Source: Fulvivirga sp.
Lineage (GTDB): Bacteria > Bacteroidota > Bacteroidia > Cytophagales > Cyclobacteriaceae
Assembly: GCA_028280565.1 (NCBI GenBank)
Contig: JANQLQ010000096.1
Coordinates: forward strand, 1 to 37,362
Direction: 5' to 3'
DNA length: 37,362 nucleotides
The position numbers and the translations under genes were made by a program. A model generated the notes under the pieces. It was not told the DNA's origin. It saw only the letters and a list, made by a program, of their open reading frames with translations, and did no database searches. Below are positions 6,235 to 35,099 of this stretch, one piece after another; the first letter of the stretch is position 1; each line of letters opens with the position of its first letter.

Positions 6235-6515
6235 TTAAGGCCAGCGCTCACTCCTAAATCTCGAAATGGGAACTAACCGCGCAAGGGAGTGCCTCTCAAG
6301 AGGTGAGGGGTGCGATGGATATGCCAAACTAACGGCATTAATCATGGATTTCCCATTGCACTTTTTTCAAAAAAGCCGCCTAAAAATTTAAAAAATGACA
6401 AAAAAGATAGGCCTTTGCTGACCGTGGCTACAAAAATTCTAAAAAACTCTCGTAGAGCAGGGAAATAGAATAAGCTGCTGGCTTTTATAAGTAAATAGCC
6501 AGGTATGAGCAGCAA

Positions 6516-10600: not shown

Positions 10601-11146
10601 CCCGACGGGCAGATCAATGACGATGACAGGACCATCATAGGAAACCAGGTCCCAAGACATCTCTTTGGCGCAAACATGAGCTTTGGATACAAAGGCTTTG
10701 ACCTTTCCGTGATCCTGCAAGGGGTTTTTGATGTGGATACTTGGACAGGGGTATCCTCGGCTTTTTGGCCAAATGATAAGGATGATCGCGGGCAGATCCA
10801 TTCCCTATGGACAGACCGGTGGACACCGGATAACCCAAGCACCGAGCTGCCGAGGATCGTTTCCGCCGGCGCCTACGGGCAAAATGTGCTGCCCTCTTCC
10901 TTTTTCGTAGAAGACAATTCTTTCCTAAGGGTAAGAAACATCACGTTGGGGTATAACTTCTCAGGCGCCCTTTTAGAAAACATCAAAGTCGACAAAATGA
11001 GGGTGTACATCAGTGCGGACAACCTGCTTACTTTCTCTGAATTCCAAGATAAGTGGGGCTGGGACCCTGAGCGTGAACCCAGGCAATTCGATGTAAGGAT
11101 ACCGAACGTAAGGACCGTGGTGTTTGGCGCAAACATCACCTTTTGA
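7628..11146 (+). CDS. SusC-like TonB-dependent transporter with STN domain
   Basis: This 1172-residue outer-membrane transporter imports oligosaccharides together with SusD. In order: signal peptide (1-25, ending VFAQ), STN domain (about 50-115), a linker, a carboxypeptidase-regulatory-like beta domain (about 160-232, VIRGVVNDEFGNPLPGVNIFV), a TonB-box-like LQEIVVVGYG (237-246), a plug (about 247-362, with LILVDG and SAAAIYGSRAANGVILITT) and the beta-barrel to a C-terminal Phe (VVFGANITF). The STN domain marks it as a signal-transducing transporter, matching the FecR and ECF genes directly upstream. The length is at the upper, STN-containing end of the family. SusD follows after 31 bases. The start is the first of two adjacent ATGs; the second, at 7631, would serve equally well. 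Confidence 0.96.
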   Translation: MMNYLQVAQRLLLFVCCHSVIPVFAQQDTDQPMAMARATSFTLTQDATNEKPLKEALEEMEVRYNINISYDPTLIKGKKVQAKIDFGNPIEKNLESLLEKQGLRFKRLEQGYYVVLAKKSKKSALQEAGPGKDTSPTSGLTSLDRSGTQLQERPILQDRVIRGVVNDEFGNPLPGVNIFVKSTTIGTVSDINGSFTLSIPDGSETLVFSFIGYMTEEVAIGAQSEINLQLTPDIATLQEIVVVGYGEQKKANVTGAVSTISTELLEERPASNATNLLAGLAPGLSATQTSGGIAGGDDPVIRLRGVGTLNNSDPLILVDGTPSSMTDINPSDIENISILKDASAAAIYGSRAANGVILITTKRAEEGLKLEYQGFVGFQEVGSSPDLITDPILWMELKNEGLTNGGDAPLFGQDVIDDYRANLGTDPLRYPATDWFDELVGDEAFMTSHTFTLNGGSEASRIRTSLNYLRQDGIGLNNQMDRYSIRINQENKLAENFTFGLNLFGAWSDITPIVDGPASFNNAQRQFLHMGMQEMPIVPTIQAPDGRWGDAQVEGAGSINNWFALASVVQDEQIRQRIQGQLYAGWEILPGLRFDARVALNYDNAQRDQFIGLIPTGSLWNFNTGIGAPNDRGETAFSNTNTSTLLTNFETLTYTKSINGVHNFSVMVGHQLDQFRREEVEATIQEFPSNSTPSLSAGQENPGVDQEIVEWALMSYFGRFSYNFRERYLLEANVRVDGSSRFSDGNKWGTFPSFSAGWRVSEEAFMEDLTIIDELKFRGSWGELGNQQINAYPYQATYSVNESYSFGGNVVTGIAQNDLANNDIQWETTTTWNLGLDLTLLQGKINFSADYFNRETDGILVRPIIPQYLGGKDAPFENLAVVVNDGFEFDIFHRNEIGDFRYSAGLNFTVQDNELTQYLSDVPFIEADATGSYVLQAGQPIWAIYGYQNIGIFQTEDEIANAPTYPVTPSPGDLMFADINGRDEDGNLTGEPDGQINDDDRTIIGNQVPRHLFGANMSFGYKGFDLSVILQGVFDVDTWTGVSSAFWPNDKDDRGQIHSLWTDRWTPDNPSTELPRIVSAGAYGQNVLPSSFFVEDNSFLRVRNITLGYNFSGALLENIKVDKMRVYISADNLLTFSEFQDKWGWDPEREPRQFDVRIPNVRTVVFGANITF

Positions 11147-11177
11147 TCACGAGGTTTAACTATTAAATCGTAGGAAA

Positions 11178-12785
11178 ATGAAAAGATTGAAATACATACT
11201 AACGGTAAGCATCTTAGTTTCAGCCATCTCTTGTGAGGATATACTTGACAAGCAGCCTTTTGATCAAATCGCTGAAACTACGTTCTGGCAGAATTCTGCC
11301 GATGCAGAGGCCGGTCTTGTGGCCTGCTATGATGCCTTGCAAATCACGGAAGACCGTTCTGCATTTTCATGGGAACGCTGGTCGGCCTTCGATATGCTAA
11401 CACAGGTCGGGGTAATTAGAAATTCAGGCCTTAGGGGCATTTCTACCAGTACGGCAAGCCCGGTTTGGAGAGATTTTGAACGTGCCTGGAGGGGACATTA
11501 CCGCGGCTTGATCCGGACCAATGACTTCTTGGTCAACATTGACCCTATTGTTTTTGCCGATGAGGAACGAAAAGAACACGCCATAGGAGAGGCTCGGTTC
11601 CTGCGGGCTATGTATTCCTTTGCACTTACAATGATATGGGGAGATGTACCCTATTTCGATGATGTGCCAAGCATCGAAGACATCGGCACGGAAAAAACCA
11701 GCCGCGAAGAGATCATCGCCATCATAAAGGCAGATTTGGATGAAGCGATAGAAAAGCTGCCGGCTACCCCGGATGATATAGGCCGTGCCGGCAAAGGAGC
11801 GGCTCATATGCTTAGATTGAAACTTGCGCTTTTTGAAGAAGATTGGCCCACGGCCATAGACCAGGCAGAAGCCGTGATGAACCTCGGCATTTATGCCTTG
11901 GAGCCGAACTATGCTGATGTTTTTACCCTTGAAAATGAAAATAATCCCGAGGTGATCTTTGATGTGCAGGCCATAGCCGATAGCGACATAGAACCCGGCA
12001 ATACCTTTGAAGATATGTTTTCAGGCAGGTTTTCCTCTAATAGCGGCCTGTCATGGATCGGTCCCGGGCTATGGTTGGTAGAGAAATACGAAGTCATAGA
12101 CCCAGACCCGGATTATGTCCAGGAAGATCCCCGTATCCCTACGGAAGTGTATGATTACTTTGAAGGTCGCGACCCGAGGATGGATGCCAACATTATTAGG
12201 CCTGGCGCTCGATTCATCGGCGTAGGGGGCACAGATTTTCTTTATCCTTTTGTGAACAACTATACGCATTCCAGGAGCGGGCTGCATGCCCGTAAATATG
12301 TGATCCCGGGAGATGCCAGCCGGAACGGTAGTAATGCATCACCGATGAACTTCATCCTTTTCAGGTATGCAGATGCCATTTTACATTGGGCAGAAGCCAT
12401 GGTACAGCAAAACGGCGGTGCCGCCCTGGGTGATCAAAGCGTCATTGACGCGATCAATAGCATTCGGTCTCGTGCGTCGGACCAGCTACCCCTCTATAAT
12501 GCTACATCCTTTGCAAGTGTAGATGACATGTTGACAGCAATTTACGACGAGCGTGTAAGGGAAATGGCACTGGAGGGGTGGCTTTATTGGGATTTTAAAC
12601 GGTGGGGCTGGATAGAGCAAAGAGACGGGTTCGCTATTATGGGAATGGCCTTGTCTAATGACGAGGTGATCTTCGACCCTAATCCCAAAGTCGTCATGGC
12701 CTGGAACCCGGGAAAAGATGAGCTATTCCCCATTCCACAATCCGAAATTGATCTGACAGGCTTACGTCAGAATCCAAACTGGTAA
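11178..12785 (+). CDS. SusD/RagB-like surface glycan-binding lipoprotein
   Basis: This 535-residue lipoprotein has its lipobox at SAISC (Cys19) followed by the classic EDILDKQPFDQIAETTFW, in which FW is a family hallmark. TPR-like helices follow (EERKEHAIGEARFLRAMYSFALTMIWGDVPYFDDV) and the SusD C-terminal signature LHWAEAMVQQNGG, then YDERVREMALEGWLYWDFKRWG and FPIPQSEIDLTGLRQNPNW. It caps the SusC transporter at the cell surface and captures the glycan. The length is normal for the family. It is co-transcribed with SusC (31-base gap) and followed by a hairpin at 12804-12835 that may lower read-through to the enzyme genes. Confidence 0.96.
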   Translation: MKRLKYILTVSILVSAISCEDILDKQPFDQIAETTFWQNSADAEAGLVACYDALQITEDRSAFSWERWSAFDMLTQVGVIRNSGLRGISTSTASPVWRDFERAWRGHYRGLIRTNDFLVNIDPIVFADEERKEHAIGEARFLRAMYSFALTMIWGDVPYFDDVPSIEDIGTEKTSREEIIAIIKADLDEAIEKLPATPDDIGRAGKGAAHMLRLKLALFEEDWPTAIDQAEAVMNLGIYALEPNYADVFTLENENNPEVIFDVQAIADSDIEPGNTFEDMFSGRFSSNSGLSWIGPGLWLVEKYEVIDPDPDYVQEDPRIPTEVYDYFEGRDPRMDANIIRPGARFIGVGGTDFLYPFVNNYTHSRSGLHARKYVIPGDASRNGSNASPMNFILFRYADAILHWAEAMVQQNGGAALGDQSVIDAINSIRSRASDQLPLYNATSFASVDDMLTAIYDERVREMALEGWLYWDFKRWGWIEQRDGFAIMGMALSNDEVIFDPNPKVVMAWNPGKDELFPIPQSEIDLTGLRQNPNW

Positions 12786-12835: not shown

Positions 12836-12921
12836 TTTCCAGGTAATAATCACTACGATTTCGAAAATAGGCATACGTGTCATGGGATTGTACTCCCAAT
12901 TATGTAGCGAATAAAACACTC

Positions 12922-14790
12922 ATGGATACCGGCATACCTCGCAAATCACTTGTATTCCTACTGCTGTTTTTCCTTCACAATGCTTGGGGACAAAAAACGA
13001 TCTATTTTTCGGAATATTTGTCTCGCTACAAAGACACAAGCCTTGCATTCTATAAGGCCTTAGAAGCTTGCAAAGCAGAGAAAGCCCATAAGCTGGTCAT
13101 ACCCAGGTCCACCTACCACTGCCATCCCGAAAGGGCTTACCAGCAATACCGGGAGATCAGCAACAACGAGAATGGGATAAAACGAATAGCATTACCCATT
13201 ATTGACCAGGAAAACCTTGAGATCGATGGTCAAGGGTCCAGGATAATTCTGCATGGGGTGATGATGGGGGCTGTTATTGAGAGCTCCAAGAATGTCAAAG
13301 TAACAGGTCTTGAATTCGACTGGGCTAAGCCCTTTTATGCCCAGGGAAAAGTAACTGCGGTCGATACTACCCAAAAAACATTTGACTTGGAATTTGCCAG
13401 CGATGTAGTGTATCGAGTGGTGAAAGACGAGGTCCTTTTTACAAGTCACGGCAGAGAATACGGTATCTCGAAGAATTTTTGGTTTGACCCTGCAAACGGC
13501 TATCCCGTGTATAACTTAACCAAGATTGCGCCGAAACATTGGGATACCCGTAAGGAAAGTCACTACCAAGTAGAAGATTTAGGGGATCAAAACATAAGAA
13601 TAAGAAACGAGCTTGAGCCTCTCCCTAAGGTAGGGTGGCACTTCATAGCGAAGTGGAAGAACTTACAATATCGTGTCAACCGGTCCGCGCCTGGTATCCA
13701 CATGCGCAATGCATTCCGGGTCACTTTGTATGATGTAAAAGTATTTTCTGCTGCCGGTATGGGCATCGTGGGCGAGCGGAGCGGGGACATTACCCTTGAG
13801 AGGGTTCAAGTCGTACCTACACCCGGCACGGATCGTGTCGTTTCAGCTACCGCGGATGCCACCCACTTTGTAAACTGCAAAGGTAAAGTGATTTTAAAGG
13901 ATTGCGTTTTTGAAAATAACCTCGATGATGGGCTGAACATCCATGGTAATTATGCAGAGGTATACGAAGTATTGGACTCCCATACCCTGGGGGTTAAACT
14001 CATGCACCGGCAGCAGGCGGGCTACGAATTTGCCGCAGCAGGGGATACACTTCGCGTGATCGATAAAAAAACGTTGCTGTCCACCGGCCAATACCTGGTA
14101 GTAGAAGATGTAGAATACATAAACGATGAATATTTTGAGATCTTAGTTCAAGACCCTACGGAAGGGATCTCTACGGGGATGGGGCTAGACAATATCTCAT
14201 GGACAGCAGAGCTGGAAATGACCGGCTGCTCTATCGGCAAAAACTGGGCGAGGAGCGTGCTGGTAAAAACACCCGGAAGGTCCGTCGTGACCCATAACCG
14301 GTTCTATTCAGCTATGCAAGGGATAAGGAATTGGGGAGACATGACCTGGTTCTACGAATCCGGAAATGTCACCGACGTCCTGGTCAGTAACAATGAGTTT
14401 ATAGATCTCTGCCGCGTGGGTGCAGGCTTTCCCGTGATTGTCATTTATCCCCAAATAAAAGAACGACAGGCCAACGCCGGGCATTACTATAATCATAACA
14501 TCAGGATCACGGACAACGTGATCCGGGCGTTTGATAGAGGCATCCTTTATGCCTTTTCAGTAGACGGCTTAACCTTTGAGAACAATACCATTATCCGGAC
14601 CGAAACTTTTGAACCATTATTTCCCTCCTTACCGGTCATTGAAATTGAAAACTGTAAAGCGGTAACGATCCACCAGAACCGTTACGAAGGAAAACCCACG
14701 GCCGACATTGTAATTGATAGCATTAGCCAGCCATACAGCCGGGTCAAAAACAACAAAGGATTCACCTATAAAACGGCAAACGATCCATGA
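12922..14790 (+). CDS. GH110-like exo-alpha-galactosidase (right-handed beta-helix)
   Basis: This 622-residue protein begins with a signal peptide (MDTGIPRKSLVFLLLFFLHNAWG) and is then a beta-helix throughout, with recurring NVKVTGLEF, DITLERVQV, KVILKDCVF and DVLVSNNEF coils. The motifs ADATHFVNCKGK and FENNLDDGLNIHG, with adjacent Asp335-Asp336, match the active-site region of GH110, a family of retained-sequence beta-helix enzymes that remove terminal alpha-1,3-linked galactose. Assignment is from motif recognition, so another beta-helix hydrolase family remains possible. The start is the ATG at 12922; an upstream in-frame ATG at 12877 would add 15 residues that spoil the signal peptide. 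The stop overlaps the next gene by 4 bases (ATGA), so the two are coupled. It should act in the periplasm on galactose-containing ends released by the upstream machinery. Confidence 0.78.
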   Translation: MDTGIPRKSLVFLLLFFLHNAWGQKTIYFSEYLSRYKDTSLAFYKALEACKAEKAHKLVIPRSTYHCHPERAYQQYREISNNENGIKRIALPIIDQENLEIDGQGSRIILHGVMMGAVIESSKNVKVTGLEFDWAKPFYAQGKVTAVDTTQKTFDLEFASDVVYRVVKDEVLFTSHGREYGISKNFWFDPANGYPVYNLTKIAPKHWDTRKESHYQVEDLGDQNIRIRNELEPLPKVGWHFIAKWKNLQYRVNRSAPGIHMRNAFRVTLYDVKVFSAAGMGIVGERSGDITLERVQVVPTPGTDRVVSATADATHFVNCKGKVILKDCVFENNLDDGLNIHGNYAEVYEVLDSHTLGVKLMHRQQAGYEFAAAGDTLRVIDKKTLLSTGQYLVVEDVEYINDEYFEILVQDPTEGISTGMGLDNISWTAELEMTGCSIGKNWARSVLVKTPGRSVVTHNRFYSAMQGIRNWGDMTWFYESGNVTDVLVSNNEFIDLCRVGAGFPVIVIYPQIKERQANAGHYYNHNIRITDNVIRAFDRGILYAFSVDGLTFENNTIIRTETFEPLFPSLPVIEIENCKAVTIHQNRYEGKPTADIVIDSISQPYSRVKNNKGFTYKTANDP

Positions 14791-17054
14791 TGAGCAAGAT
14801 AGCAAGTACTTTAAAAACTACGAACCTACGGCAGTACTGCTTCTTTAACAGTATTATTCCCTGTATTCTATTGGTTTTTGGTTGTAATACAGGTCCTAAA
14901 GAGGAAAAGCTAGTGAATACTGTACCCTTCAAACACGGCTTAGCCCAAAAGCTGGGGGGAGGCTCTACCAACAATGCCGTTTTTGGCAACCCGACCAGCA
15001 TCAATATTTACGAAGCTGCCAATATCCTAGGCTACGGCGCAGCGCGGGGGAATTTAAATCACCATGAATATTGGCAGAACGGGGCCCCTGTTACGGGCAA
15101 ACTGGACAGGATCATCGGCTGGTATAAGTATGGGATTAAACCCTTATTTCTACTGAACCATTACCCCGACTCAGCGAATCCCATAGGAAGTTATGAAAAA
15201 TGGTTCGCCATAGGGGCTGCCTTTGCCGGGCGTTTCCGTCCCAACAGCGATTTCCTGCTCTCCAAAGGCATAAAAGACTGGGGCATTACAGAATATATGG
15301 CTTTTAACGAGCCCCAGTGGCATGAAATACGGCACCCCGGCACTATGCCAGCCGCTGCTTACAAGGAAGCGCTCCGGGGATTGGCCGATGGTGTTCACTC
15401 CGTCGATCCTAAACTGAAAGTGAGCCCCGGGGGCTTTACCTTCCCCCTTTGGCAGAGTGTACTGGCCGACCCACCGGACCTGGAGGCTATCAACTTGATC
15501 CGCGAAATTGTCCCGTTATACAATGACGGCACCCTGCACGCATTATACTTACATCCCTATGTAAACCGCCGGGATTTTAAAAAAGGCAGGTCAGCCCAGC
15601 GGATATTCGATCGCGTAAAAGAGACCTTGGGAATTAAAAGGGACATTCATTTTGCCGTGCTGGAGTTTTGTTTCGCAGGGTCTTTCACGTTGGACGATCA
15701 AAAAGATGATGCCAAGGGATTAGATCAAGGTGCTAACGTGGCAGAACACTTTGGAAAAGAATCCGAGGAGGGCAAAGCCTACGGGATGATGGCAGCGCTC
15801 TGGGACAACCTCACCGTGACCGGCAATAAGGGACAGCCCATTACCGACTATGTACTGGCCTGGGAACCCCTCACCACTTATTTGGGGAACCGCAACTGGG
15901 GCCTGGCCAAAAGTAAAGCGCCTTATGAAGGTCGCTTAGCGGCTAACATGCTCCAACTGAATAGCTATTTAACCACGGGCATGTCCTTCACCCGTATAGA
16001 CCATGACCGCGAGGTCTTTGAATTAGAAGGCAATGGTAACCGGCTGATAGCCTGGCAAAACTGGAAAGGCTGGTCCTCCATTGCCGCGGATACCTTCACC
16101 GTAGCAGGCATTCCAAAAGAAGCGAAGCAACTGGAAGTGTTTGATGCCCTTTCCTGGGAGAGTGGCCCGGGTTTTAGTGGTGTGCCAAAGCCGGTGCAGG
16201 CCCATTCCCTCCAAGGAGAAAATTCCTTTACTGTGAAAGGTCTAAAAACGGATCGGACCTATCTTTTTATGCTATGGAACAACAAGCAGGAGCGAACGCC
16301 CCCAAGCGTTAGCCTGGAACCATTGGCCGCTTATGAGCATGGAAGCATGATCATCCCGGCGGAAGTAAATGCCGCCAATGGGAAGGTCCTTGTAAGCCGG
16401 GTGTACAACGGTGCCCACCTACTGGCTGAACTACCTGGCGGAGGCCCTATCCATTACACTTGGAAAAATCCACCACCCGGCTTAAATAAAATCCGGGTTA
16501 CGGCCATGGACGATTCGGGGCTGCTCAATACCGCTCAACAAGAGATTACCATACCGCACGACGAACCACATGTAAAAGTGCAGGAGGATACCTACATCCG
16601 TGGCTTTCATAAACGCTACAGCAGTAAAAACTTTGGAGCCTTAACGGTACTGGAAACCAAAGTCGGGGGAAACAAGGCCATACGGTACAGCTATCTCAAG
16701 TTTGATTTGGCTGCCATTCCAAAAACTTTTGAAAGGTGTGAATTGAGATTGAAAGTGGATCGAAACAGTGATTACCCGGGCAACCAATGCATCTTATACA
16801 CAGTACAGGATAACACTTGGGCGGAAAACGAGATGGCTTGGGATACGGCTCCGCCAAAAGGAGATAGCCTTTCTACGGCAAAAGTGCCTCTTCCCGGTGA
16901 GTGGATCGCCTTTGATATTTCAGCTTACATCAAAGAAAAAAAGCAAAATACTAAGCAGGTCTCATTCCGGCTGGAAAAACCTAACCGCACTCATGTGAGC
17001 TTTTTCAGCAAAGAATCGCACCCCATGAACGCCCCAATTTTAAGCTTTAACTAA
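14787..17054 (+). CDS. Lipoprotein with GH-A-like barrel and C-terminal DNRLRE (CBM96-like) module
   Basis: This 755-residue protein has a lipoprotein signal (LLVFGC, Cys33). Residues 55-400 look like a (beta/alpha)8 glycosidase of clan GH-A: TEYMAFNEP puts the acid/base at Glu175 and FAVLEFCF the nucleophile at Glu293, a spacing typical of strands 4 and 7. A beta domain follows (about 405-497), then an Ig-like segment (about 503-590) and a DNRLRE-type module (about 595-755, VQEDTYIRGF, YLKFDLAAIP, WAENEMAWDTAPP). It is a clear paralogue of the protein at 22639-26562: both have GIxDWG, MAFNEP, DGVHSV-P, TGMxF and EGNGxRLI-WQN. I cannot place the barrel in a numbered family; GH39- or GH86-like enzymes are the nearest in style. 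It probably sits on the outer membrane and cleaves the main chain or large oligosaccharides. Confidence 0.75.
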   Translation: MMSKIASTLKTTNLRQYCFFNSIIPCILLVFGCNTGPKEEKLVNTVPFKHGLAQKLGGGSTNNAVFGNPTSINIYEAANILGYGAARGNLNHHEYWQNGAPVTGKLDRIIGWYKYGIKPLFLLNHYPDSANPIGSYEKWFAIGAAFAGRFRPNSDFLLSKGIKDWGITEYMAFNEPQWHEIRHPGTMPAAAYKEALRGLADGVHSVDPKLKVSPGGFTFPLWQSVLADPPDLEAINLIREIVPLYNDGTLHALYLHPYVNRRDFKKGRSAQRIFDRVKETLGIKRDIHFAVLEFCFAGSFTLDDQKDDAKGLDQGANVAEHFGKESEEGKAYGMMAALWDNLTVTGNKGQPITDYVLAWEPLTTYLGNRNWGLAKSKAPYEGRLAANMLQLNSYLTTGMSFTRIDHDREVFELEGNGNRLIAWQNWKGWSSIAADTFTVAGIPKEAKQLEVFDALSWESGPGFSGVPKPVQAHSLQGENSFTVKGLKTDRTYLFMLWNNKQERTPPSVSLEPLAAYEHGSMIIPAEVNAANGKVLVSRVYNGAHLLAELPGGGPIHYTWKNPPPGLNKIRVTAMDDSGLLNTAQQEITIPHDEPHVKVQEDTYIRGFHKRYSSKNFGALTVLETKVGGNKAIRYSYLKFDLAAIPKTFERCELRLKVDRNSDYPGNQCILYTVQDNTWAENEMAWDTAPPKGDSLSTAKVPLPGEWIAFDISAYIKEKKQNTKQVSFRLEKPNRTHVSFFSKESHPMNAPILSFN

Positions 17055-20315
<3,261 letters not shown>

Positions 20316-20332
20316 TAAAAACAAATACAAAT

Positions 20333-22570
20333 ATGAAATTAAAGATATCATCACTGGGCCTGGTTCTCTTACTCATTTCTACCTTGGGTTTCGCACAAAA
20401 GACGCTCGATCATGTTTCCATGGTAGACCCCTTCATAGGCTCTCAAGGAGGTGGCAATGTTTTCGTAGGGGCGTGCAAGCCTTTCGGCATGGTAAAACTG
20501 GGCCCGGACTACGAAGGTCACTCAAATTCCGGCTTTAGGGAAGAAGGGCGCATAGAAGGATTCAGTCATACCCACACCAGCGGTACCGGGGGCGGTGCCA
20601 AGTATGGCAATGTATTACTTACAGCGCAGTCCGGGACGCTAAACGTAAAAGACTACGCTTCATCGCGGGAAAAGGAAGCCTGTGTTGCAGGGCATTACAG
20701 TGTTTACCTTAAAGATGCGCAGGTCCAAGTAGACCTTACCTCGAGTGACCGCACCGGTTTCCATAAGTACACCTTCCCGGCAGGAGAAGCACATATCCTC
20801 TTGGATGCTGGCCACTTACTTTATACGGGAAGAGAAAATGGCGGCGACCGGTACCGGTTCGGGGAAGCCCAATACCTGGTGGGAAGCGAGGTCAAGATCT
20901 TATCTCCTACTGAAATAGCGGGCTACACCCGTGTTAAAGGAGGGTGGAACCTCGGGCCGGCATATACGGTCTACTTTCACGCCGTTTTTGACACACCGGC
21001 GCAGCAATCCGGAACATGGGACGCCAGCCGAAATGCAAACGCCAATACTACGCTGGCAATGGCTGGTGGAAAGGGCGCTGGCGCATACTTCTCTTTTAAT
21101 ACTACGGCCGATCAGGCCATCCAAGTAAAAGTCGGTATTTCATTTATCAGCATAGAAAAGGCCAAGCTGAACGCCGCAAGGGAAATACCCAGCTGGGATT
21201 TTGAAAAAACCGTATCCGATAGCCAGGCAGTATGGAACCAACTGCTCGGTAAGATCAACGTCAAAGGGGGTACCCGGGCCCAGCAAAAGATCTTGTACAC
21301 GGGCCTGTACCACACCATGCTCATGCCTACGGACCGCAGCGGCGAGAACCCCTTGTGGGACTCAAAAGAACCCTATTACGATGATTTTTATGCCATTTGG
21401 GATACCTATCGTACTACTAATCCCCTTTTTACCATAATTCTCAGGGACCGTCAAAGAGATATGATCCGCTCGCTTGTGGATACCTATAAACACGAAGGAT
21501 ACATGCCCGACGCCCGCTCCGGCAACTTTACAGGACGCACCCAAGGGGGGAGCAACTGTGATATGCTCATCACCGAAGCCTACCTGAAAGGGATAGAGGG
21601 GATCGACTATGACCTGGCTTATGAAGCCATGATCAAAAATGCGGAAGTAGATCCGGGTGACGATCATGAGCAAAAAGGACGAGGAGGCATTGACGATTAC
21701 AACAGCATCGGCTATGTCCCTAGCGAACACTATCGTTCTGCATCGCGCACCGTGGAGTATTGTGCCAATGATCACGCCATAGCCACCCTCGCCCAGGCGC
21801 TGGGCAAAAAGGACGATCACCGGAAATACCTTCAAAGGTCGGCGAACTGGAAAAACCTGTGGCGGCCCCATACGCTGGACGGATTCACAGGATTTATTTG
21901 GCCTCGCTTGCGTAACGGGGAGTGGAAAAAAGACCATGATCCCATGGAATGGGGCTATTGGGATGTGCAAATGTACGAAGGTACAGCCTGGGATTATTCA
22001 TTTTACGTACCCCACGATATTCGCGGCCTCATCCGGCAGTGTGGAGGGGAAGAAGTGTTCGTACGGCGGCTCGATCATTTCTTTGATAAAGAGTATTTCA
22101 ATGTCACCAACGAACCGGATTTTCTGACTCCCTGCCTCTACCTATGGGCCGGCAGGTACGACAAGACCGCGGAAAGGATCAAGAAGATCAGCAACACCGC
22201 CTGGTCCGATAAACCGGGCGGGATACCCGGCAATGATGATTCCGGTGCTATGTCTGCCTGGTGGGTTTTCCATGCCATGGGCTTCTTTCCCCTAGCCGGC
22301 CAAGATGTTTATTTGATCACCACCCCGGTCTTCGAGAAAAGTTCACTGGACATGGGTGACGGGAAGATCTTCACCATAGAATGCAAAAAGCTAAGCGAGA
22401 AAAACATTTACGTGCAAGAAGCCAAGCTGGATGGCAAACCCTTGCAACGGGCGTGGTTCCGGCATAATGAAATACAAGAAGGCGCGACATTGGAATTGAT
22501 CATGGGCTCTTCCCCGTCAAGCTGGGGCTCGGATCCCGCTTCATTCCCACCTTCAGTAACGGATCATTGA
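20333..22570 (+). CDS. GH92 exo-alpha-mannosidase family protein
   Basis: This 745-residue protein has a signal peptide (MKLKISSLGLVLLLISTLGFAQ) and the GH92 architecture: an N-terminal beta-sandwich beginning VDPFIGSQGGGNVFVGACKPFGMVKLGPD, then an (alpha/alpha)6 domain with DRQRDMIRSLVDTYKHEGYMPDA and the family hallmark GNDDSGAMSAW (residues 633-643) with the catalytic-type Asp pair 635-636. GH92 enzymes are calcium-dependent, inverting exo-alpha-mannosidases. The frame is open 21 bases further upstream from a TTG that overlaps the GH2 stop, but the ATG at 20333 gives a proper signal peptide. In a locus otherwise built for galactose, a GH92 suggests mannose side chains or a relative with a changed specificity. 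Confidence 0.93.
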   Translation: MKLKISSLGLVLLLISTLGFAQKTLDHVSMVDPFIGSQGGGNVFVGACKPFGMVKLGPDYEGHSNSGFREEGRIEGFSHTHTSGTGGGAKYGNVLLTAQSGTLNVKDYASSREKEACVAGHYSVYLKDAQVQVDLTSSDRTGFHKYTFPAGEAHILLDAGHLLYTGRENGGDRYRFGEAQYLVGSEVKILSPTEIAGYTRVKGGWNLGPAYTVYFHAVFDTPAQQSGTWDASRNANANTTLAMAGGKGAGAYFSFNTTADQAIQVKVGISFISIEKAKLNAAREIPSWDFEKTVSDSQAVWNQLLGKINVKGGTRAQQKILYTGLYHTMLMPTDRSGENPLWDSKEPYYDDFYAIWDTYRTTNPLFTIILRDRQRDMIRSLVDTYKHEGYMPDARSGNFTGRTQGGSNCDMLITEAYLKGIEGIDYDLAYEAMIKNAEVDPGDDHEQKGRGGIDDYNSIGYVPSEHYRSASRTVEYCANDHAIATLAQALGKKDDHRKYLQRSANWKNLWRPHTLDGFTGFIWPRLRNGEWKKDHDPMEWGYWDVQMYEGTAWDYSFYVPHDIRGLIRQCGGEEVFVRRLDHFFDKEYFNVTNEPDFLTPCLYLWAGRYDKTAERIKKISNTAWSDKPGGIPGNDDSGAMSAWWVFHAMGFFPLAGQDVYLITTPVFEKSSLDMGDGKIFTIECKKLSEKNIYVQEAKLDGKPLQRAWFRHNEIQEGATLELIMGSSPSSWGSDPASFPPSVTDH

Positions 22571-22638
22571 CACCGCCAGAATAAAAAAGTGAAACGAACA
22601 AACCGAATATAACAACCCAATGAAAAAAAACATCTACC

Positions 22639-25600
22639 ATGAAAAATGTAAAACTCACCTTCACCTTGCTGGCAATTACCCTGGGTAGTTGCTTATCCTC
22701 ATTAGCACAGGACATCCCCTCTATGATGGGGGGTGTAGCCGGATCCACCAACAGGAGCAACGAAAGCTTCGTTAATAGTTTTAGCAGCTCAAATGTGAGC
22801 GGTGTGCATAACCCTAGGCTGAGCATCTACCCAAACCGGTATTGGGATACATCGACGAATCAACCCACCCCGGAAGAAGTGGACGAATTAATACTTATGG
22901 CCCATGATCATGGGCAAGACCTGGTCCTCTACTTTATTCACTACCTGGAAGAAAGCGGCGACCCTGGGGACTACAATAAATGGTACGCCATCGGCCAAGC
23001 CTTTGCTACACGCTTTGGAAAAAACAGTGCTTGGCTCGCGTCAAAAGGGATCACCGATTGGGGCTCTACTACCTTTATGGCCTTTAATGAGCCTTGGCAT
23101 AATACCCAAAGCTGGGACCCGCAGGTCTTTAAAGACTGTATGGACGGGCTGGGAGATGGTGTGCACTCCGTAAACCCCGATTTTATAGTCACTCCCGGGG
23201 GTATGCCCACCTATCTGCTCCCGGATAGGAACCCGCTGATCGGGGCCATAACGCCCTTGCTCAATGACGGGACCTTGGACGGGCTGACTTTTCATCTCTA
23301 TAATGACACACGACGTGAAAGGCCTTGGCGCATGGATTATGAATTTAACTCACAAGCCGTTTTCGATACTGTGAAAAGCCACTGGGGCATCACCGCGGAT
23401 ATCTACTACCATGTCACAGAATACATGCCCAAAGCCGATGATGATATTTGGAAAGCCAAATACTTCTTGATGCATACCTGGTCTAACCTAGGTGTGGTAG
23501 GCAACCAAGGCCAGCCCGTTACTAGGCACATTGCGCCCTATCTTTACACCATCACCACCTCTGCGCATGATCAGTTTGGTATGGCGGACGTAGACTGGCT
23601 CTGGCACGGCAACCTAAAAGGCCGGGTGTACCAAATGGTGTCCCGCTTAACCTCGGGAATGCAGTTCGTTTCGCTTGATCCCCGGGGCAGCGGGGAATTC
23701 GTGCTGGAAGGTAATGGTAAACGTCTCATCGTTTGGCAAAATGCAGAAGGGTGGACCAACCATTTAGACTCGAGCTTTACCGTACAAAACATACCGGCTA
23801 CAGCTAGCCACCTGGAAGTATACCGTTACGACTCATGGACCCAACCTTATGGAGGGCACGGAGGTGATCCCGCCCCCTATCAGTCCATAACACTATCCGG
23901 CCAAACTTCTTACACGGTCGATGATCTTCCCCCGGGCGAGTGCTACATGTTTATGCTCTATGATGGCGGCACACTTAACCAACATCCCAGCGTTGCGATC
24001 ACGAACATCACCGAAGACCAGGTGTTTAGCGAAGGAGATAGCATAACCATCGCTGCCAGTGTATCCGATACCGATGGTCAAATCGAAGAAGTACGTTTTT
24101 TCACAGACAGGAGCATGGCGGGAGTGCTAAGAACTTCTCCCTATGAGATCACCCTCAGCGATGTGCCAATTGGACGAACCCAACTCATTGTAACTGCTAA
24201 AGACGAACACGGGGGATTCAACGTATCTACCGTAAACATCATCGTAGAGCCCAAGGGTGAATTTGTAAGGGCTACAGATGACGCCTATGTGAGGGGTGAT
24301 AATAACGCCGGCATTAATTACGGCGTTGATCCCGATGTTATCACTAAATTCCACACCCGCTTAAAAGACCGCTACGATGCTTATTTTAAGTTTGACCTAT
24401 CGGGGATAGGCCAGCAAAGCGTGGATTCCGCCCATTTAAGGTTAAGGGTGAACCGCAAAGGAGCGGTGGACATTAACATGCACCATGTGGCGGATGACTC
24501 GTGGGATCAATCCTCATTGACATGGAATAATAAGCCCCCGGCAAGCGATCCCATTTTATCTTTTGAGCCGGCTTCCAATGGCGAATGGATGAAGATCGAC
24601 ATCACTTCCCTGGTCAATACCGAGCTGGGCGGCGATAAAATGCTTTCCCTGATGCTCGTCCCGGAAAGGCTAGGGCAAGATACGCGGTTTTATGCACAGG
24701 AAAGCAGTATTTACAATGCAGCATTCATCTCCTATAAAAAGGTATACATTAATGTTGACATTACCACACCCTTGGATAGCACGGAGGTTCCTTATATGAC
24801 TCCTGTAACCATATCCGTAGATGCCTCCGACAGCGTGAGCACCATTACCAAAGTAGAGTTCTTCGCGAATGGGAACAAGTTAGGAGAAAGCACCTCGGCC
24901 CCTTATTCTCTTATTTGGACCGGTGCCCCGGCCGGCAATTATTCCATCACGGCTGTAGCGGTCAATGCCCAAGGCGATCAAAAAACTTCGGAAGAAATTT
25001 TCCTCTCGATCGTGGATCCGGACCAAAACTTTTTAACGCCCGAAGCAGACACCTATGTACGGAGTGGTAATTCGAGCGCCCTCAATTTCGGCACGTCGGA
25101 AGAGTTGGAAGTGAAAAAAGGCGGGATACATTTCAAATTTGAGACATTATTAAAATTTGACCTATCGGGGATCAAGCGAGAGGTGGTAGATGCCAAGCTA
25201 CGGCTCAATGTGATCCATGACGATGAAAAATCCGGCGATCCTGACCATACGTTATACTTTGTAAGTGATGACAGCTGGGAAGAAAATGTGGTGACATGGG
25301 ACACGAAACCCACAACCGATTCCGTACTAAGTGTCCAAGTAGCTCCTAACCTAGGTCAATGGATGGAATACGATGTTACATCCATAGTTAAAGCACAAGC
25401 CTTGAGCGATAGTACGATCACCTTCATGATGGGTTCCAGTAACAACACGTCTCTTATCTATGCTTCAAGGGAGAGCAGTTCATTTTTGATATGGCCCCAG
25501 CTTGTAGTGGTTACGCTACCGGAGCCTCCGGCCGCGCCGAGTAATTTAAGTACGGTGGTGATGTCGGATACCCAGGTGAACTTAGCATGGGCTGATAATG

Positions 25601-26562
25601 CCGGGAACGAAGAGGGGTTCATCATAGAGCGAAAAGCCGATACAACAAATGTGTTTAACCCCATTGCCACGGTGGGCGCGGGGGTTACCCAGTACAATGA
25701 TAGCGGCCTGGCCTGCGAAACTACTTACACGTACCGTGTAAAAGCCAACAATGCCGGCGGCCCTTCGGGATATTCCAATGAAAGCACCGGGGTTACACGA
25801 CTATGCCCTAACGGCCAGGCCTCCTTCGGCGGCTCGCCATGGAACATACCCGGCACCATTGAAGCAGAAGATTTCGATGAAGGCGGGCAAGGGCTTTCCT
25901 ATTACGATAAGCACCCTTACAACATCGGCCGGGCGTATCGATCCTCTGAAGGAGTTGATATCGGGCACAGGCGTGGAGGAGGGCACTACGTAGGCTGGAA
26001 TTGGACTGGTGAATGGTTAGAATATACCGTGTATGTCGAAGCCGCAGGAGAATATAACATCGAGGCGGAAGTGGCCAGCTGGTCCAGGCGCGGCAGGTTC
26101 CACATTGAGTTTGAAGGTGTAGACAAGACAGGTGCTATTCCAGTGCCTAGAACGTGGGGCTGGCAAAGATGGAGGACCATAGAAGCAGGTACCGTGAGTC
26201 TGCCGGTAGGGAAGCAGATCATGCGTCTATACCTGGATCGGGGCCTATTCAATCTCAATAGTCTCACGTTTACCCGCAGCGACACAGGATACAATACTCG
26301 TAAAGGGGCCGATAGCGCTATTGACCAAGAGGAAGGGCTGCACCAGGATATTGGTATTTATCCTAACCCCACAAAGGGCATGATTAAGATAGCAGGAGTA
26401 GAAGATCAAGAGGTAATGATTTACAATACGTTGGGCATAAAAGTAATGCAAGCCACGCTGCAAGCCGGTGAATTAGACCTCTCCACCTTGGGCCAGGGGG
26501 TTTACATCCTCATGATCCCGGTAGGGGACGAACACAGGATCAAGCGGATTATTAAAGAATAG
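22639..26562 (+). CDS. Large modular T9SS-exported GH-A-like enzyme with two DNRLRE modules, FN3 and CBM6-like domain
   Basis: This 1307-residue protein contains, in order: signal peptide (1-23); a GH-A-like barrel (about 28-345) with MAFNEP (Glu151, acid/base) and HVTEYMP (Glu261, nucleophile); a beta domain (345-441); an Ig-like domain (447-538); a DNRLRE module (541-705); a second Ig-like domain (707-792); a second DNRLRE module (798-958); FN3 (962-1054); a CBM6-like domain (1068-1212, GTIEAEDFDEGGQG and WTGEWLEYTVYV); and a T9SS type A sorting domain (1238-1307, IGIYPNPTKG to RIIKE). It should be secreted and attached to the outer surface by type IX secretion. The DNRLRE folds resemble alginate-binding CBM96. 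Barrel and beta domain are paralogous to 14787-17054, though the family is not one I can number. It is followed by a terminator-like hairpin. Confidence 0.82.
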   Translation: MKNVKLTFTLLAITLGSCLSSLAQDIPSMMGGVAGSTNRSNESFVNSFSSSNVSGVHNPRLSIYPNRYWDTSTNQPTPEEVDELILMAHDHGQDLVLYFIHYLEESGDPGDYNKWYAIGQAFATRFGKNSAWLASKGITDWGSTTFMAFNEPWHNTQSWDPQVFKDCMDGLGDGVHSVNPDFIVTPGGMPTYLLPDRNPLIGAITPLLNDGTLDGLTFHLYNDTRRERPWRMDYEFNSQAVFDTVKSHWGITADIYYHVTEYMPKADDDIWKAKYFLMHTWSNLGVVGNQGQPVTRHIAPYLYTITTSAHDQFGMADVDWLWHGNLKGRVYQMVSRLTSGMQFVSLDPRGSGEFVLEGNGKRLIVWQNAEGWTNHLDSSFTVQNIPATASHLEVYRYDSWTQPYGGHGGDPAPYQSITLSGQTSYTVDDLPPGECYMFMLYDGGTLNQHPSVAITNITEDQVFSEGDSITIAASVSDTDGQIEEVRFFTDRSMAGVLRTSPYEITLSDVPIGRTQLIVTAKDEHGGFNVSTVNIIVEPKGEFVRATDDAYVRGDNNAGINYGVDPDVITKFHTRLKDRYDAYFKFDLSGIGQQSVDSAHLRLRVNRKGAVDINMHHVADDSWDQSSLTWNNKPPASDPILSFEPASNGEWMKIDITSLVNTELGGDKMLSLMLVPERLGQDTRFYAQESSIYNAAFISYKKVYINVDITTPLDSTEVPYMTPVTISVDASDSVSTITKVEFFANGNKLGESTSAPYSLIWTGAPAGNYSITAVAVNAQGDQKTSEEIFLSIVDPDQNFLTPEADTYVRSGNSSALNFGTSEELEVKKGGIHFKFETLLKFDLSGIKREVVDAKLRLNVIHDDEKSGDPDHTLYFVSDDSWEENVVTWDTKPTTDSVLSVQVAPNLGQWMEYDVTSIVKAQALSDSTITFMMGSSNNTSLIYASRESSSFLIWPQLVVVTLPEPPAAPSNLSTVVMSDTQVNLAWADNAGNEEGFIIERKADTTNVFNPIATVGAGVTQYNDSGLACETTYTYRVKANNAGGPSGYSNESTGVTRLCPNGQASFGGSPWNIPGTIEAEDFDEGGQGLSYYDKHPYNIGRAYRSSEGVDIGHRRGGGHYVGWNWTGEWLEYTVYVEAAGEYNIEAEVASWSRRGRFHIEFEGVDKTGAIPVPRTWGWQRWRTIEAGTVSLPVGKQIMRLYLDRGLFNLNSLTFTRSDTGYNTRKGADSAIDQEEGLHQDIGIYPNPTKGMIKIAGVEDQEVMIYNTLGIKVMQATLQAGELDLSTLGQGVYILMIPVGDEHRIKRIIKE

Positions 26563-26636: not shown

Positions 26637-27728
26637 TTGAAAGACCTTAGGATAAGGAACATACGTTTATATCGCGCGCAAACGGAGTTAAAGAAACCCA
26701 TCTCCGATGCCACCCATCAGCTTACCGAAATATCATTTGTCATACTTCGGCTACAACTGGAAAATGGCGTAGTCGGGGAATCGTATTTGCTGTCCTTCCA
26801 ATACTCCCCTCATGCCATTATAGGCGCATTCAAAGATGTAAAGGAGATCATCCACGGGTATAAAACCAACGAGACCGGCACGGTTTATACTAAGCTCGAG
26901 TCCTTGGCCGAGTACTTTGGCAACCCAGGGCTGTTACGATGGGCCCAGGCGGCGGTTAATATTGCCATGTGGGACGCCTGGGGGAAGCACTTAGGATTGC
27001 CGGTGCACGAGATCTTAGGGGTCCACCGTGAGAAAGTATCCTTATACGGCAGCGGGGGCTGGATCTCCTACACCTTAGATGAGCTGATCGATGAAGTATC
27101 CGGTTATGCGGCTAGTGGGTTTAAAGCCGTGAAAATAAAGGTAGGCTCTCCCAAAATCAGTACAGACTTAGAAAGGCTAAAAAAAGTAAGGGAGGTACTT
27201 GGGGACGAGATAGACATTATGATGGATGCTAACCAAGGCATGGACCTGCCCATGGCAATAAAACTAGCCAAAGCAGCCCGCAACCTTAACATCCAATGGT
27301 TCGAGGAGCCCGTGCACCATCAAAACTTCCAAGCTTATGAGATCCTGAAAAACCAAACCGGCATCTCTTTGGCGATGGGCGAAAGAGAATTCGACACCTT
27401 GCCCCTCAGGGAGTTGGCCACCCGTAATGCCCTTGACATTTGGCAGCCGGATATTTTAAGGATCGGGGGAGTAGAAGCGTGGCGGGAAAGTGCGGCACTG
27501 GCCAAAAGCTTCCACCTGCCGGTTTTGCCTCATTATTATAAAAATTACGATGTGCCATTGCTGTGTACCATTTCCAACGGCATCGGGGCTGAATCTTTCG
27601 ACTGGATAGACCCGCTGATCGATAACCCGATGAAAGTGGAGAAGGGTTATGCCCGGCCGCACGCGCAGCCCGGCTGGGGATTCAATTTCCTGGATGAGCA
27701 TTTGACCGAGATAAGACTGGATACTTGA
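26637..27728 (+). CDS. Enolase-superfamily sugar-acid dehydratase/cycloisomerase (mandelate racemase/muconate lactonising group)
   Basis: This 363-residue cytoplasmic protein has the N-terminal capping domain and the C-terminal barrel of the enolase superfamily. The barrel shows the KIK pair (Lys166, Lys168 in VKIKVG), metal ligands Asp197 (MMDANQ), Glu223 (WFEEP) and Glu249 (MGEREF), and His299 in LPHYYKNYDV as the probable second base. Such enzymes abstract the proton alpha to a carboxylate, so the substrate is likely an aldonate: galactonate, fuconate or, in agar degraders, 3,6-anhydrogalactonate, whose cycloisomerase belongs to this superfamily. The start is a TTG: it gives MKDLRIRNIRLYRAQ, the expected first strand, and no ATG fits. 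It comes shortly after a terminator-like hairpin and 38 bases before an SDR gene, its likely pathway partner. Confidence 0.85.
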   Translation: MKDLRIRNIRLYRAQTELKKPISDATHQLTEISFVILRLQLENGVVGESYLLSFQYSPHAIIGAFKDVKEIIHGYKTNETGTVYTKLESLAEYFGNPGLLRWAQAAVNIAMWDAWGKHLGLPVHEILGVHREKVSLYGSGGWISYTLDELIDEVSGYAASGFKAVKIKVGSPKISTDLERLKKVREVLGDEIDIMMDANQGMDLPMAIKLAKAARNLNIQWFEEPVHHQNFQAYEILKNQTGISLAMGEREFDTLPLRELATRNALDIWQPDILRIGGVEAWRESAALAKSFHLPVLPHYYKNYDVPLLCTISNGIGAESFDWIDPLIDNPMKVEKGYARPHAQPGWGFNFLDEHLTEIRLDT

Positions 27729-27766
27729 GACGGAACGTGAGTAACTGTTATCAACATCACTAAATC

Positions 27767-28528
27767 ATGGAACACGAAGTATTTTCACTAAAAGACAAGC
27801 TTGCGCTAATCACTGGCGGGGGTACGGGCATTGGCTTTGGCATTTCCCGGGCGTTCGTAAACGCCGGGGCGAGAGTGGTGATCACGGGTAGGAGGCAACA
27901 CGTGTTAGAGGAGGCAGTAGCTTCTTTAGGCGATAACAGCCGCTACATTGTAAATGACATCGTCGAAACGGTGAATCTCCCCACCTTGGTGACGGAAATT
28001 GAAGAGCATATCGGTCCGCTGGATATTTTAGTGAACAACGCAGGCATCCATCATAAAGCATGGGCACAAGATACCACCGATGAAGATTTCGAAAGGGTCT
28101 TACGAACCAACCTTTTGAGTGTTTTTGGTCTTACCCGGGAATGTGCTAACTACATGCTCCAACGCAAAAGCGGTTCCATCCTCATGATCAGCTCCATGGC
28201 GGGGTTGTTCGGCATTGACAGGGTAGCCGCCTACAGCGCGTCAAAAACAGCGCTCACCGGCTTGGTGAATACACTGGTCACAGAATACTCCAAGAGCAAT
28301 GTAAGGGTGAACGCCATAGCCCCCGGGTGGATAGAGTCCGAAATGTTTTTAAATGCGATTGACCAGGACGAAGATCGAAAGCAAAAGATCACAAACAGGA
28401 TTGCCATGGATCACTTTGGCAAGCCTTCTGACATTGGCAACGCGGCCGTTTTTTTAAGCTCCGAGGCGGCCCGCTACATCACGGGGGTGATCTTACCGGT
28501 GGACGGAGGAGCAGCAGTGAATTTTTAG
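27767..28528 (+). CDS. Short-chain dehydrogenase/reductase (SDR)
   Basis: This 253-residue classical SDR has the nucleotide-binding TGGGTGIG (residues 16-23), NNAG (90-93), catalytic Ser142/143, and YSASK with Tyr156 and Lys160. The C-terminal NAIAPGWIESEM and ILPVDGGAAVNF complete the family signature. The sequence TGRR after the second strand suggests NADP(H) preference, but that is only an inference. Together with the enolase-superfamily protein upstream it could oxidise a sugar to an aldonate, or reduce the keto product of the dehydratase, as in gluconate 5-dehydrogenase-type pathways. There is no signal peptide. The next gene starts 4 bases after its stop, so it is part of the operon. 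Confidence 0.92.
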   Translation: MEHEVFSLKDKLALITGGGTGIGFGISRAFVNAGARVVITGRRQHVLEEAVASLGDNSRYIVNDIVETVNLPTLVTEIEEHIGPLDILVNNAGIHHKAWAQDTTDEDFERVLRTNLLSVFGLTRECANYMLQRKSGSILMISSMAGLFGIDRVAAYSASKTALTGLVNTLVTEYSKSNVRVNAIAPGWIESEMFLNAIDQDEDRKQKITNRIAMDHFGKPSDIGNAAVFLSSEAARYITGVILPVDGGAAVNF

Positions 28529-28532
28529 AAAA

Positions 28533-29585
28533 ATGAAGACATTCTTAGTTGTATTTATCATTTCCCTAGTAGGACCCACGCTGTGCGCCCAGGTATTCCC
28601 CGGGACGGAATGGCAAGTAGCAGACGACCCAGCTGATTATGGCTATTCCCTAGCAGGATTAAAAAAAGCAGAAGAATACGCCAATGGCTTAAATACAGCC
28701 GCCACTATTGTAGTGGTGGATGGGGTGATCATTTACGAGTGGGGGCAAGTAAATACAAAATACCTCGCCCATTCCGTGCGTAAGAGCATGGCCAGTATAC
28801 TTTTCGGTAATTACGTAGAAAAAGGGCTCATCGATGTTGATAAAACCTTGGGTGAGATCGGCATAGATGACGTGCCGAAGCTAACGGAACGTGAGAAAAC
28901 GGCTACTATTCGCGACTGCCTGAAGGCCCGCTCGTGTGTTTACCATGATTGTATCCTACGAGAGGGGTCGAAAGCCAAGGGCCCCCCCGACTTAAAGCTG
29001 CCCCCGGGCACCCACTTCCTTTACAACAACTGGGATTTTAACGTGTTAGGCACCATACTGGAACAATCCGCTGGAAAAGACATTTTCCAGGTCTTGGAAG
29101 AGGACATCGCTCAACCCATCCGGATGGAAAGCTTCACGGCCGCAGATGGCTGGAAAATGACCGGCGACGCTTCCATACACGCTTCTTACCCGCTAAAGAT
29201 CACCGCGCGAGACCTTGCCCGCTTTGGCGTACTGATGCTCAACAAGGGCAATTGGAACGGCAAACAAGTAGTACCGGCCGAGTGGGTGGAAGAGTGTACC
29301 ACGTATCATTCCGATGCTACCCGGTCCTTCAACGACGGCTATGGATACATGTGGTGGGTGGCCAAAAAGAATAACAAATACCCGCATTACCCAAATGTGG
29401 AGGTTCCCCTAGGCTCGTACTCCGCCCGTGGTCGTGGGGGGCATCACATGCTGGTAGTGCCGAGCTATGACCTGGTCATCGTTCACAGGGTAGATACTTT
29501 TAAGGAAGGCAATGCCGTATCCAAAGAGGATTTTGGGAGCCTGGTAAAAATGATCTTTGATGCGAAACTTCCAGCGAATGAGTAG
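28533..29585 (+). CDS. Secreted serine hydrolase of the beta-lactamase (class C/esterase) fold
   Basis: This 350-residue protein has a signal peptide (MKTFLVVFIISLVGPTLCAQ) and the beta-lactamase-related layout. The SxxK motif is Ser81-Val-Arg-Lys84 in AHSVRKSMASILFG, a YxN-type motif is LYNNWDFNVLG, and GRGGHHMLVVPSYDLVIVHR supplies the third, His-Gly-like motif. Proteins of this kind in PULs are usually esterases or amidases rather than antibiotic-resistance enzymes, so I expect removal of an acyl group from the glycan or its fragments. The YxN here is followed by another Asn, so the exact catalytic Tyr pairing is uncertain. Its 3' end overlaps the next gene by 8 bases if that gene starts at 29578, so the two are translationally coupled. 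Confidence 0.85.
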   Translation: MKTFLVVFIISLVGPTLCAQVFPGTEWQVADDPADYGYSLAGLKKAEEYANGLNTAATIVVVDGVIIYEWGQVNTKYLAHSVRKSMASILFGNYVEKGLIDVDKTLGEIGIDDVPKLTEREKTATIRDCLKARSCVYHDCILREGSKAKGPPDLKLPPGTHFLYNNWDFNVLGTILEQSAGKDIFQVLEEDIAQPIRMESFTAADGWKMTGDASIHASYPLKITARDLARFGVLMLNKGNWNGKQVVPAEWVEECTTYHSDATRSFNDGYGYMWWVAKKNNKYPHYPNVEVPLGSYSARGRGGHHMLVVPSYDLVIVHRVDTFKEGNAVSKEDFGSLVKMIFDAKLPANE

Positions 29586-30516: not shown

Positions 30517-30564
30517 GATCCCGGTAAGAACGCCATGGACTTTAAAGATCAAATGATGAATCAA

Positions 30565-32118: not shown

Positions 32119-32226
32119 ATGAAACAAATAATCAACTCCTTACACGCTATTTTCTTCTTATGCCCGGGAGCAGTATCCAAGGGCAGTAGCTTGCTAGCCC
32201 GGGAGGTTGCATCCGGGCTCGGATCA

Positions 32227-33738: not shown

Positions 33739-33749
33739 ACCTTGGTGGC

Positions 33750-35087: not shown

Positions 35088-35099
35088 GAGGGGAAAACA

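Follow-up and report, generated by a model that had tools for sequence, protein, structure and literature searches.

Two related proteins, which we call GHx1 and GHx2 and which are encoded in a polysaccharide-utilisation locus (PUL) on a 37,362-nucleotide contig of Fulvivirga sp. (GenBank assembly GCA_028280565.1, JANQLQ010000096.1; this whole stretch is the window), can be set beside several glycoside hydrolases (GH) already described, as far as the accessible portions of the sources cited here and below extend. PslG of Pseudomonas aeruginosa is an endo-beta-glucanase with Glu276 as nucleophile and Glu165 as acid/base, assigned to GH39 by sequence (PMC11912335), and it belongs to a setting of exopolysaccharide synthesis, whereas GHx1 and GHx2 lie in a catabolic PUL and between them bear the carbohydrate-binding modules (CBM) CBM96 and CBM6 and a tail of the type IX secretion system (T9SS). 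Another GH39 enzyme, 5jvk of Bacteroides cellulosilyticus, matches GHx in structure at 12–13% identity without a match in sequence searches. The GH173 beta-galactosidases are likewise built of a clan GH-A barrel and a beta-sandwich and occur in PULs with GH2, but these are gut PULs with GH78 (PMC8810776); the GH167 enzymes of a carrageenan PUL share with GHx the clan and a predicted lipid anchor, but have a GH42-like build of four domains, where the GHx models have a barrel and one beta-sandwich (PMC6923384), both families being set apart from GHx by their description only. Finally, the lambda-carrageenan cascade of P. distincta U2A resembles the present locus in that GH110 and a beta-galactosidase, with sulfatases, trim an alpha-1,3/beta-1,4 galactan, but its endo step belongs to GH150 (PMC12549532), a family that was not recognised in general library scans of the window, whether Pfam holds a GH150 model being unchecked.

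From the computed fold, two conserved Glu and their places relative to its strands, the absence of library matches and a repeated gene neighbourhood, we infer a mechanism, an endo mode and a substrate: GHx1 and GHx2 would be retaining beta-glycoside hydrolases of clan GH-A, forming a rare family beside GH39, that cut a sulfated galactose-containing heteropolysaccharide internally, a reading to which we give a probability of about 0.6. The preliminary description of this DNA had placed two paralogous proteins at 14787–17054 and 22639–26562, and open reading frames (ORFs) are found exactly there, both on the + strand; their alignment spans 681 columns, with 32% of positions identical (E 3e-92), so that the resemblance is not due to chance. 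The translations also contain all that had been claimed as the signature of the pair: a Glu in NEP followed by a second in LEF or TEY 110–118 residues later (E175 and E293 in GHx1, spacing 118; E151 and E261 in GHx2, spacing 110), and the motifs GIxDWG (GIKDWG/GITDWG), DGVHSV-P (DGVHSVDP/DGVHSVNP), TGMxF (TTGMSF/TSGMQF) and EGNGxRLI-WQN (EGNGNRLIAWQN/EGNGKRLIVWQN). As for the claim that one protein is a lipoprotein and the other exported by T9SS, the N-terminal signal of GHx1 ends in ...LLVFGC, lipobox-like by eye, with a Cys at the same place in its orthologues of loci L021 and L022, by which GHx1 would be a lipoprotein, probably located at the surface; the C-terminal tail of GHx2 exceeds the curated cut-offs of Pfam PF18962 and NCBIfam TIGR04183, and the claim is supported.

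AlphaFold2 models of the catalytic regions, built from an 11-row alignment, comprise a barrel and then a beta-sandwich (predicted local distance difference test, pLDDT, 78.0 and predicted template modelling score, pTM, 0.81 for GHx1; 83.7 and 0.87 for GHx2). The barrel is of the (beta/alpha)8 form, in which strand 4 is followed by the first Glu and strand 7 carries the second, in agreement with the clan GH-A pattern proposed earlier: in model numbering, E124 of GHx1 follows strand 118–121 and E242 lies on strand 237–245, and E126 of GHx2 follows strand 120–123, which is weakly formed, and E236 lies on strand 231–237. Structure prediction had been proposed as a means of confirming that the two Glu face one pocket; the strand arrangement stands in both models, and the common cleft is judged from strand positions alone, the strands having been numbered by hand. 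All 18 aligned rows conserve both Glu; 16 of these are distinct, two pairs being the same protein. In retaining enzymes of clan GH-A, the strand-4 Glu protonates the leaving group and the strand-7 Glu forms the glycosyl-enzyme. On the models, E175 and E151 would be the acid/base, and E293 and E261 the nucleophile, of retaining beta-glycosidases.

The catalytic part is without match in Pfam, NCBIfam or the PDB sequences, and the family is small. Scanned with a limit of E 10, 11 members showed no GH family of Pfam, with PF01229 (GH39), GH30 and Cellulase included; Pfam recognises accessory domains only (Table 1), in GHx2 with further weaker overlapping matches, and NCBIfam the DNRLRE domain and the T9SS tail only. 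A search of the PDB sequences with the family profile returned no glycosidase and no GH39 chain among its seven matches up to E 10 (best 0.12, judged chance), and PslG and 5jvk were not retrieved with GHx1 or GHx2. These results bear out the earlier claim that the pair lies outside the families named there. The claim calls for one refinement: in the structure search PslG and 5jvk are among the top matches of both models, the modelled fold is closest to that of the endoglycosidase PslG (13–16% identity in structural alignments with 5bx9 and 9g17; 4zn2 is presumably another PslG structure), and the barrel plus beta-sandwich of GH39 is present in GHx1 and GHx2. Since this fold is common to much of clan GH-A, profiles were compared as well, by hhalign against alignments from related genomes: GH39 (n=7, out of 20 loci of the GH39 search, which also gave eight sequences in five small groups, with L040, L045, L046, L047 and L049 unused), GH5 (n=14, out of 15 loci, L073 having yielded no ORF) and GH30 (n=15). 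The GHx profile gave probabilities of 96.3 with GH39 and 89.3 with GH5, the order being unchanged (77.9 and 41.7) once four divergent rows were removed and the GH5 match being confined to the barrel; GH30 gave 3.7 and 5.2 against its 15 sequences, and six controls drawn from the GHx clusters (GH92, GH2, GH27, SusD, sulfatase, SusC) gave 1.0 or less. The GH39 alignment sets E175 against the Glu of its NEP motif and E293 against that of its NEW motif, and these two residues are paired in the GH5 alignment as well. GH86 gave 0.9, against only two sequences judged GH86-like, BuGH86 being among the Foldseek matches of the models; for GH50, no Pfam GH family lies on the catalytic region and no comparison was aimed at it. 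Both fold and profile comparison put GH39 (PslG, 5jvk) closest among the known families found, so that GHx1 and GHx2 are not without kin. Novelty is judged here with Pfam, NCBIfam and PDB, which leaves room for GH-A families that lack a solved structure or a Pfam model.

The family is sparsely distributed. The genome itself holds three copies (four matching stretches), two in the window and a divergent third in locus L005, 30% and 29% identical to the window pair; five of 145 relatives match, this genome counted, and it is the sole match among 395 genomes sampled evenly from the phylum and among 291 of the order. A scan of genome contigs with two peptide patterns only, hence a lower bound, gave at least nine loci: four from three Aquimarina genomes, one each from a Flammeovirgaceae metagenome-assembled genome (MAG) of coral black band disease, Fulvivirga sp. 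M361 and a Cyclobacteriaceae MAG, and two from Paenibacillus (L022, L025 and L026 are taken as contigs of G010, G013 and G073, and so overlap with the 145 relatives). A homologue is also found on two Rhizobium tumorigenes plasmids; in the one examined (L033:11905–13233), it overlaps a family-4 glycosyltransferase gene in an exopolysaccharide cluster with O-antigen ligase, flippase and transport protein. In the tree, GHx1, GHx2, the copies from GH27-type loci and those of Paenibacillus and Rhizobium form separate supported clades, on long branches and with the order among clades not settled. The alignments leave out two more GHx copies of G073 (L007/L019 and L014/L020), whose end motif was missed by the script and whose translations show NEP and TEY, as well as the L021 version of GHx1 and, from Rhizobium, the second copy (98.4% identical). 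The third copy of this genome (L005:1491–4529, contig C152) has a laminin-G-like domain and a T9SS tail and adjoins two nucleoside-hydrolase-like proteins and also beta-helix-like ones, named by eye; in the Cyclobacteriaceae MAG (L026, G073:C443), three consecutive GHx proteins stand beside GH27 and GH2; and in Paenibacillus macerans (L023:11300–13983), an apiosidase-like protein (PF13204) and a phosphotransferase-system (PTS) EIIC adjoin the GHx gene.

The window holds, from 5569 to 36896 on the + strand, a Sus-type PUL with a SusC/SusD pair, co-directional hydrolases and a regulator, in the order sigma/FecR, SusC, SusD, GH110, GHx1, GH2, GH92, GHx2, enolase-superfamily enzyme, short-chain dehydrogenase/reductase (SDR), beta-lactamase-fold protein, esterase, GH28, sulfatase, second beta-lactamase-fold protein and SSF transporter, the genes from GH110 through GH92 abutting or overlapping. 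Twelve loci were compared, of which nine are from Bacteroidota and, with the window, make ten. Among these ten, an alpha-galactosidase (GH110 or GH27) stands beside GHx in nine, GH2 in eight, and GH92 and a sulfatase in seven each. GHx1 and GHx2 occur together in all three loci of the window type (window, black-band MAG, Aquimarina 2-536A), all three with GH28; conserved as a unit in this way, the pair is likely to have a joint role. The other two keep the gene order of the window, with protein identities of 59–86% over the hydrolases, SusC/D, beta-lactamase-fold and esterase genes they share with it; FecR (26%), the Aquimarina SSF (25%) and an extra sulfatase (24–26%) fall below that level, the enolase-superfamily gene is unmatched in both loci, and the SDR likewise, apart from one match of 33% where the MAG stretch has its edge. 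In the second type, GHx is accompanied by GH27, GH2, GH92 and sulfatase, plus GH127 where the stretch reaches that far; the cultured strains Aquimarina sp. U1-2 and Fulvivirga sp. M361 carry a locus of this type. No further gene of the window was matched in the Rhizobium locus or in either Paenibacillus locus. At the GH92–GHx2 junction the window has just 68 bases (22571–22638), where L021 (8224–9774) and L022 (8303–9844, with Pfam support) hold an extra sulfatase.

The sequence of events that we propose would begin outside the cell, where GHx2, exported by T9SS and held on the glycan by CBM96 and CBM6, would cut internal beta-linkages, and where GHx1, at the cell surface, would share in the first backbone cuts; SusC/SusD would import the resulting fragments for trimming by GH110 (alpha-1,3-galactose), GH2 (beta-galactose), GH92, GH28 and the sulfatase. 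Endo action is suggested by the multi-domain secreted build, and because no other depolymerase was recognised in the GH27-type locus L090/L091 among the ORFs scanned, which are not every ORF. Galactose in both alpha- and beta-D form, together with sulfate ester, is most likely part of the glycan; the presence of GH92 and GH28 points to mannose and a uronic acid too, in favour of a heteropolysaccharide rather than plain carrageenan. CBM96 has been described as alginate-specific (PMC9971899); its presence does not fix the substrate of GHx1 and GHx2.

Some observations weigh against this reading. The locus in G084 has GHx with SusC/SusD and no alpha-galactosidase, GH2, GH92 or sulfatase, and the second locus of G010 has GH27 and GH127, with GH2, GH92 and sulfatase unmatched on its contig, which does not favour a fixed substrate (the G073 locus also lacks GH92 and sulfatase, but stops at the contig border). 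In addition, the eight weaker Pfam-GH39 sequences gave hhalign values of 0.4, 0.4, 0.9, 2.3 and 25.8, although a profile built from only one or two sequences is a poor one; at the level of profiles, the comparison shows a link that would run to the main GH39 set and not to everything the GH39 model touches. These low scores also count against the idea that GHx1 and GHx2 are simply unrecognised members of GH39, of the PslG subgroup, acting as endo-beta-glycosidases on a bacterial or algal exopolysaccharide. The top structural matches and the best profile match among the three GH-A families speak for such membership, as does the assignment of PslG itself to GH39 by sequence; but a common fold does not by itself define a CAZy family, none of the 11 members matches the Pfam GH39 model at E up to 10 (whether that model detects PslG being unchecked), and the family profile retrieves no GH39 chain from PDB. 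Membership is in our view the less likely reading.

A family beside GH39 could also act differently from what we propose. GHx1 and GHx2 could be exo-acting, on a side chain or terminal sugar, and leave depolymerisation to GH28, which is indeed present in every locus of the window type, and exo-xylosidases are frequent among the GH39/GH30 structural neighbours. However, no relative of GH28 was matched in those GHx loci that are of the GH27 type, the enzyme that fits best in fold is endo-acting, and a T9SS protein bearing several CBMs, as GHx2 is, has the usual build of a depolymerase; we regard the exo mode as improbable. We consider still more doubtful that the target is a lambda-like carrageenan, with GHx in place of GH150 as endo-beta-1,4-galactanase. 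The closest PDB sequence to the window GH110 is that of GH110A (9beh, E 2.2e-81), which we take to be a P. distincta enzyme. The alpha-1,3/beta-1,4 D-galactose backbone requires alpha- and beta-galactosidases with sulfatases (PMC12549532), but the conserved GH92 and GH28 are hard to place in lambda-carrageenan, the window has one sulfatase against five in the published cascade (the cluster may extend past the window end), and GH110 acts on other Gal-alpha-1,3-Gal too (PMC7939477).

Several genes around the pair can be described more closely. The GH110 protein combines the family match with three catalytic Asp, TADATHF and NLDDG being aligned with GH110A. In PdGH110B, Asp344 serves as general acid, water is activated by Asp321 and/or Asp345, and D344N is inactive (PMC7939477); PDB entry 9bev has Asn in place of the first Asp of DDG, as expected if it is an inactive enzyme of the D344N type, and Asp344 is placed in the window GH110 through this Asn, taken as the same engineered position, and Asp321 by position. 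For GH2, the NCBIfam match is to Bga2A, and the accessible literature (bifidobacterial galactosidases, gut agarose breakdown) did not settle the substrate. The second beta-lactamase-fold ORF begins within the sulfatase gene, and the protein itself probably starts further on, at a Met near 33750. Upstream of the PUL, on the minus strand (4404–5290), a RES-domain protein beside an Xre/MbcA/ParS antitoxin is likely a toxin-antitoxin pair.

Table 1. Positions in the window of GHx1, GHx2 and the accompanying genes.
Feature	Position	Strand	Basis
ECF (extracytoplasmic function) sigma factor (5569–6234), FecR anti-sigma (6516–7559)	5569..7559	+	annotation scan
SusC (7628–11146), SusD (11178–12785)	7628..12785	+	annotation scan
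GH110 alpha-1,3-galactosidase, catalytic Asp motifs kept; 4-base overlap with GHx1	12877..14790	+	Pfam, PDB sequence match, motifs
GHx1, lipoprotein-like: GH-A catalytic domain and beta-sandwich, then CBM96/DNRLRE	14787..17054	+	ORF, Pfam, NCBIfam, model
GHx1 catalytic region for alignment/fold (TIM barrel and beta-sandwich)	14940..16283	+	alignment, model
GHx1 E175 (NEP), predicted acid/base, after strand 4	15309..15311	+	alignment, model
GHx1 E293 (LEF), predicted nucleophile, on strand 7	15663..15665	+	alignment, model
GHx1 CBM96 (DNRLRE) domain	16572..17042	+	PF24517, E 3.9e-30
GH2 beta-galactosidase, LacZ type	17055..20315	+	Pfam; NF052611, 1124.8 bits (cut-off 999)
GH92, nominal alpha-mannosidase	20312..22570	+	PF07971, E 6.5e-157; TIGR01180
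GHx2, secreted: GH-A catalytic domain, 2 Big_7, 2 CBM96, fn3, CBM6, T9SS tail	22639..26562	+	ORF, Pfam, NCBIfam, model
GHx2 catalytic region for alignment/fold	22714..23967	+	alignment, model
GHx2 E151 (NEP), predicted acid/base	23089..23091	+	alignment, model
GHx2 E261 (TEY), predicted nucleophile	23419..23421	+	alignment, model
GHx2 best CBM96 stretch; second stretch upstream	25030..25512	+	PF24517, E 1.2e-71, 2 stretches
GHx2 CBM6 domain	25936..26277	+	PF03422, E 4e-17
GHx2 T9SS type A sorting tail	26356..26553	+	PF18962, TIGR04183
Enolase-superfamily sugar-acid enzyme, SDR, beta-lactamase-fold protein, esterase	26637..30516	+	library scans
GH28 (30535–32118); sulfatase with CSPAR motif (32119–33738)	30535..33738	+	library scans, motif
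Second beta-lactamase-fold protein, SSF transporter	33558..36896	+	library scan

In open-access literature searches, no title or abstract beginning described an enzyme type or a locus type of this kind. With slightly less than even confidence, it may be proposed that these proteins count among the earliest members to be recognised of an uncharacterised GH-A family in which the Bacteroidota branch would cut internally a sulfated heteropolysaccharide of alpha- and beta-galactose, in a pathway so far undescribed, and in which the Rhizobium and Paenibacillus branches would handle bacterial exopolysaccharide. A catalytic part without Pfam or NCBIfam match, in a cluster that recurs in Cytophagales and Aquimarina, offers protein targets for an unexplained first cut, and the activity of GHx1 and GHx2 would reveal the glycan on which such clusters feed; enzymes of the PslG type would in this way extend from the synthesis of exopolysaccharide to the uptake of glycans.

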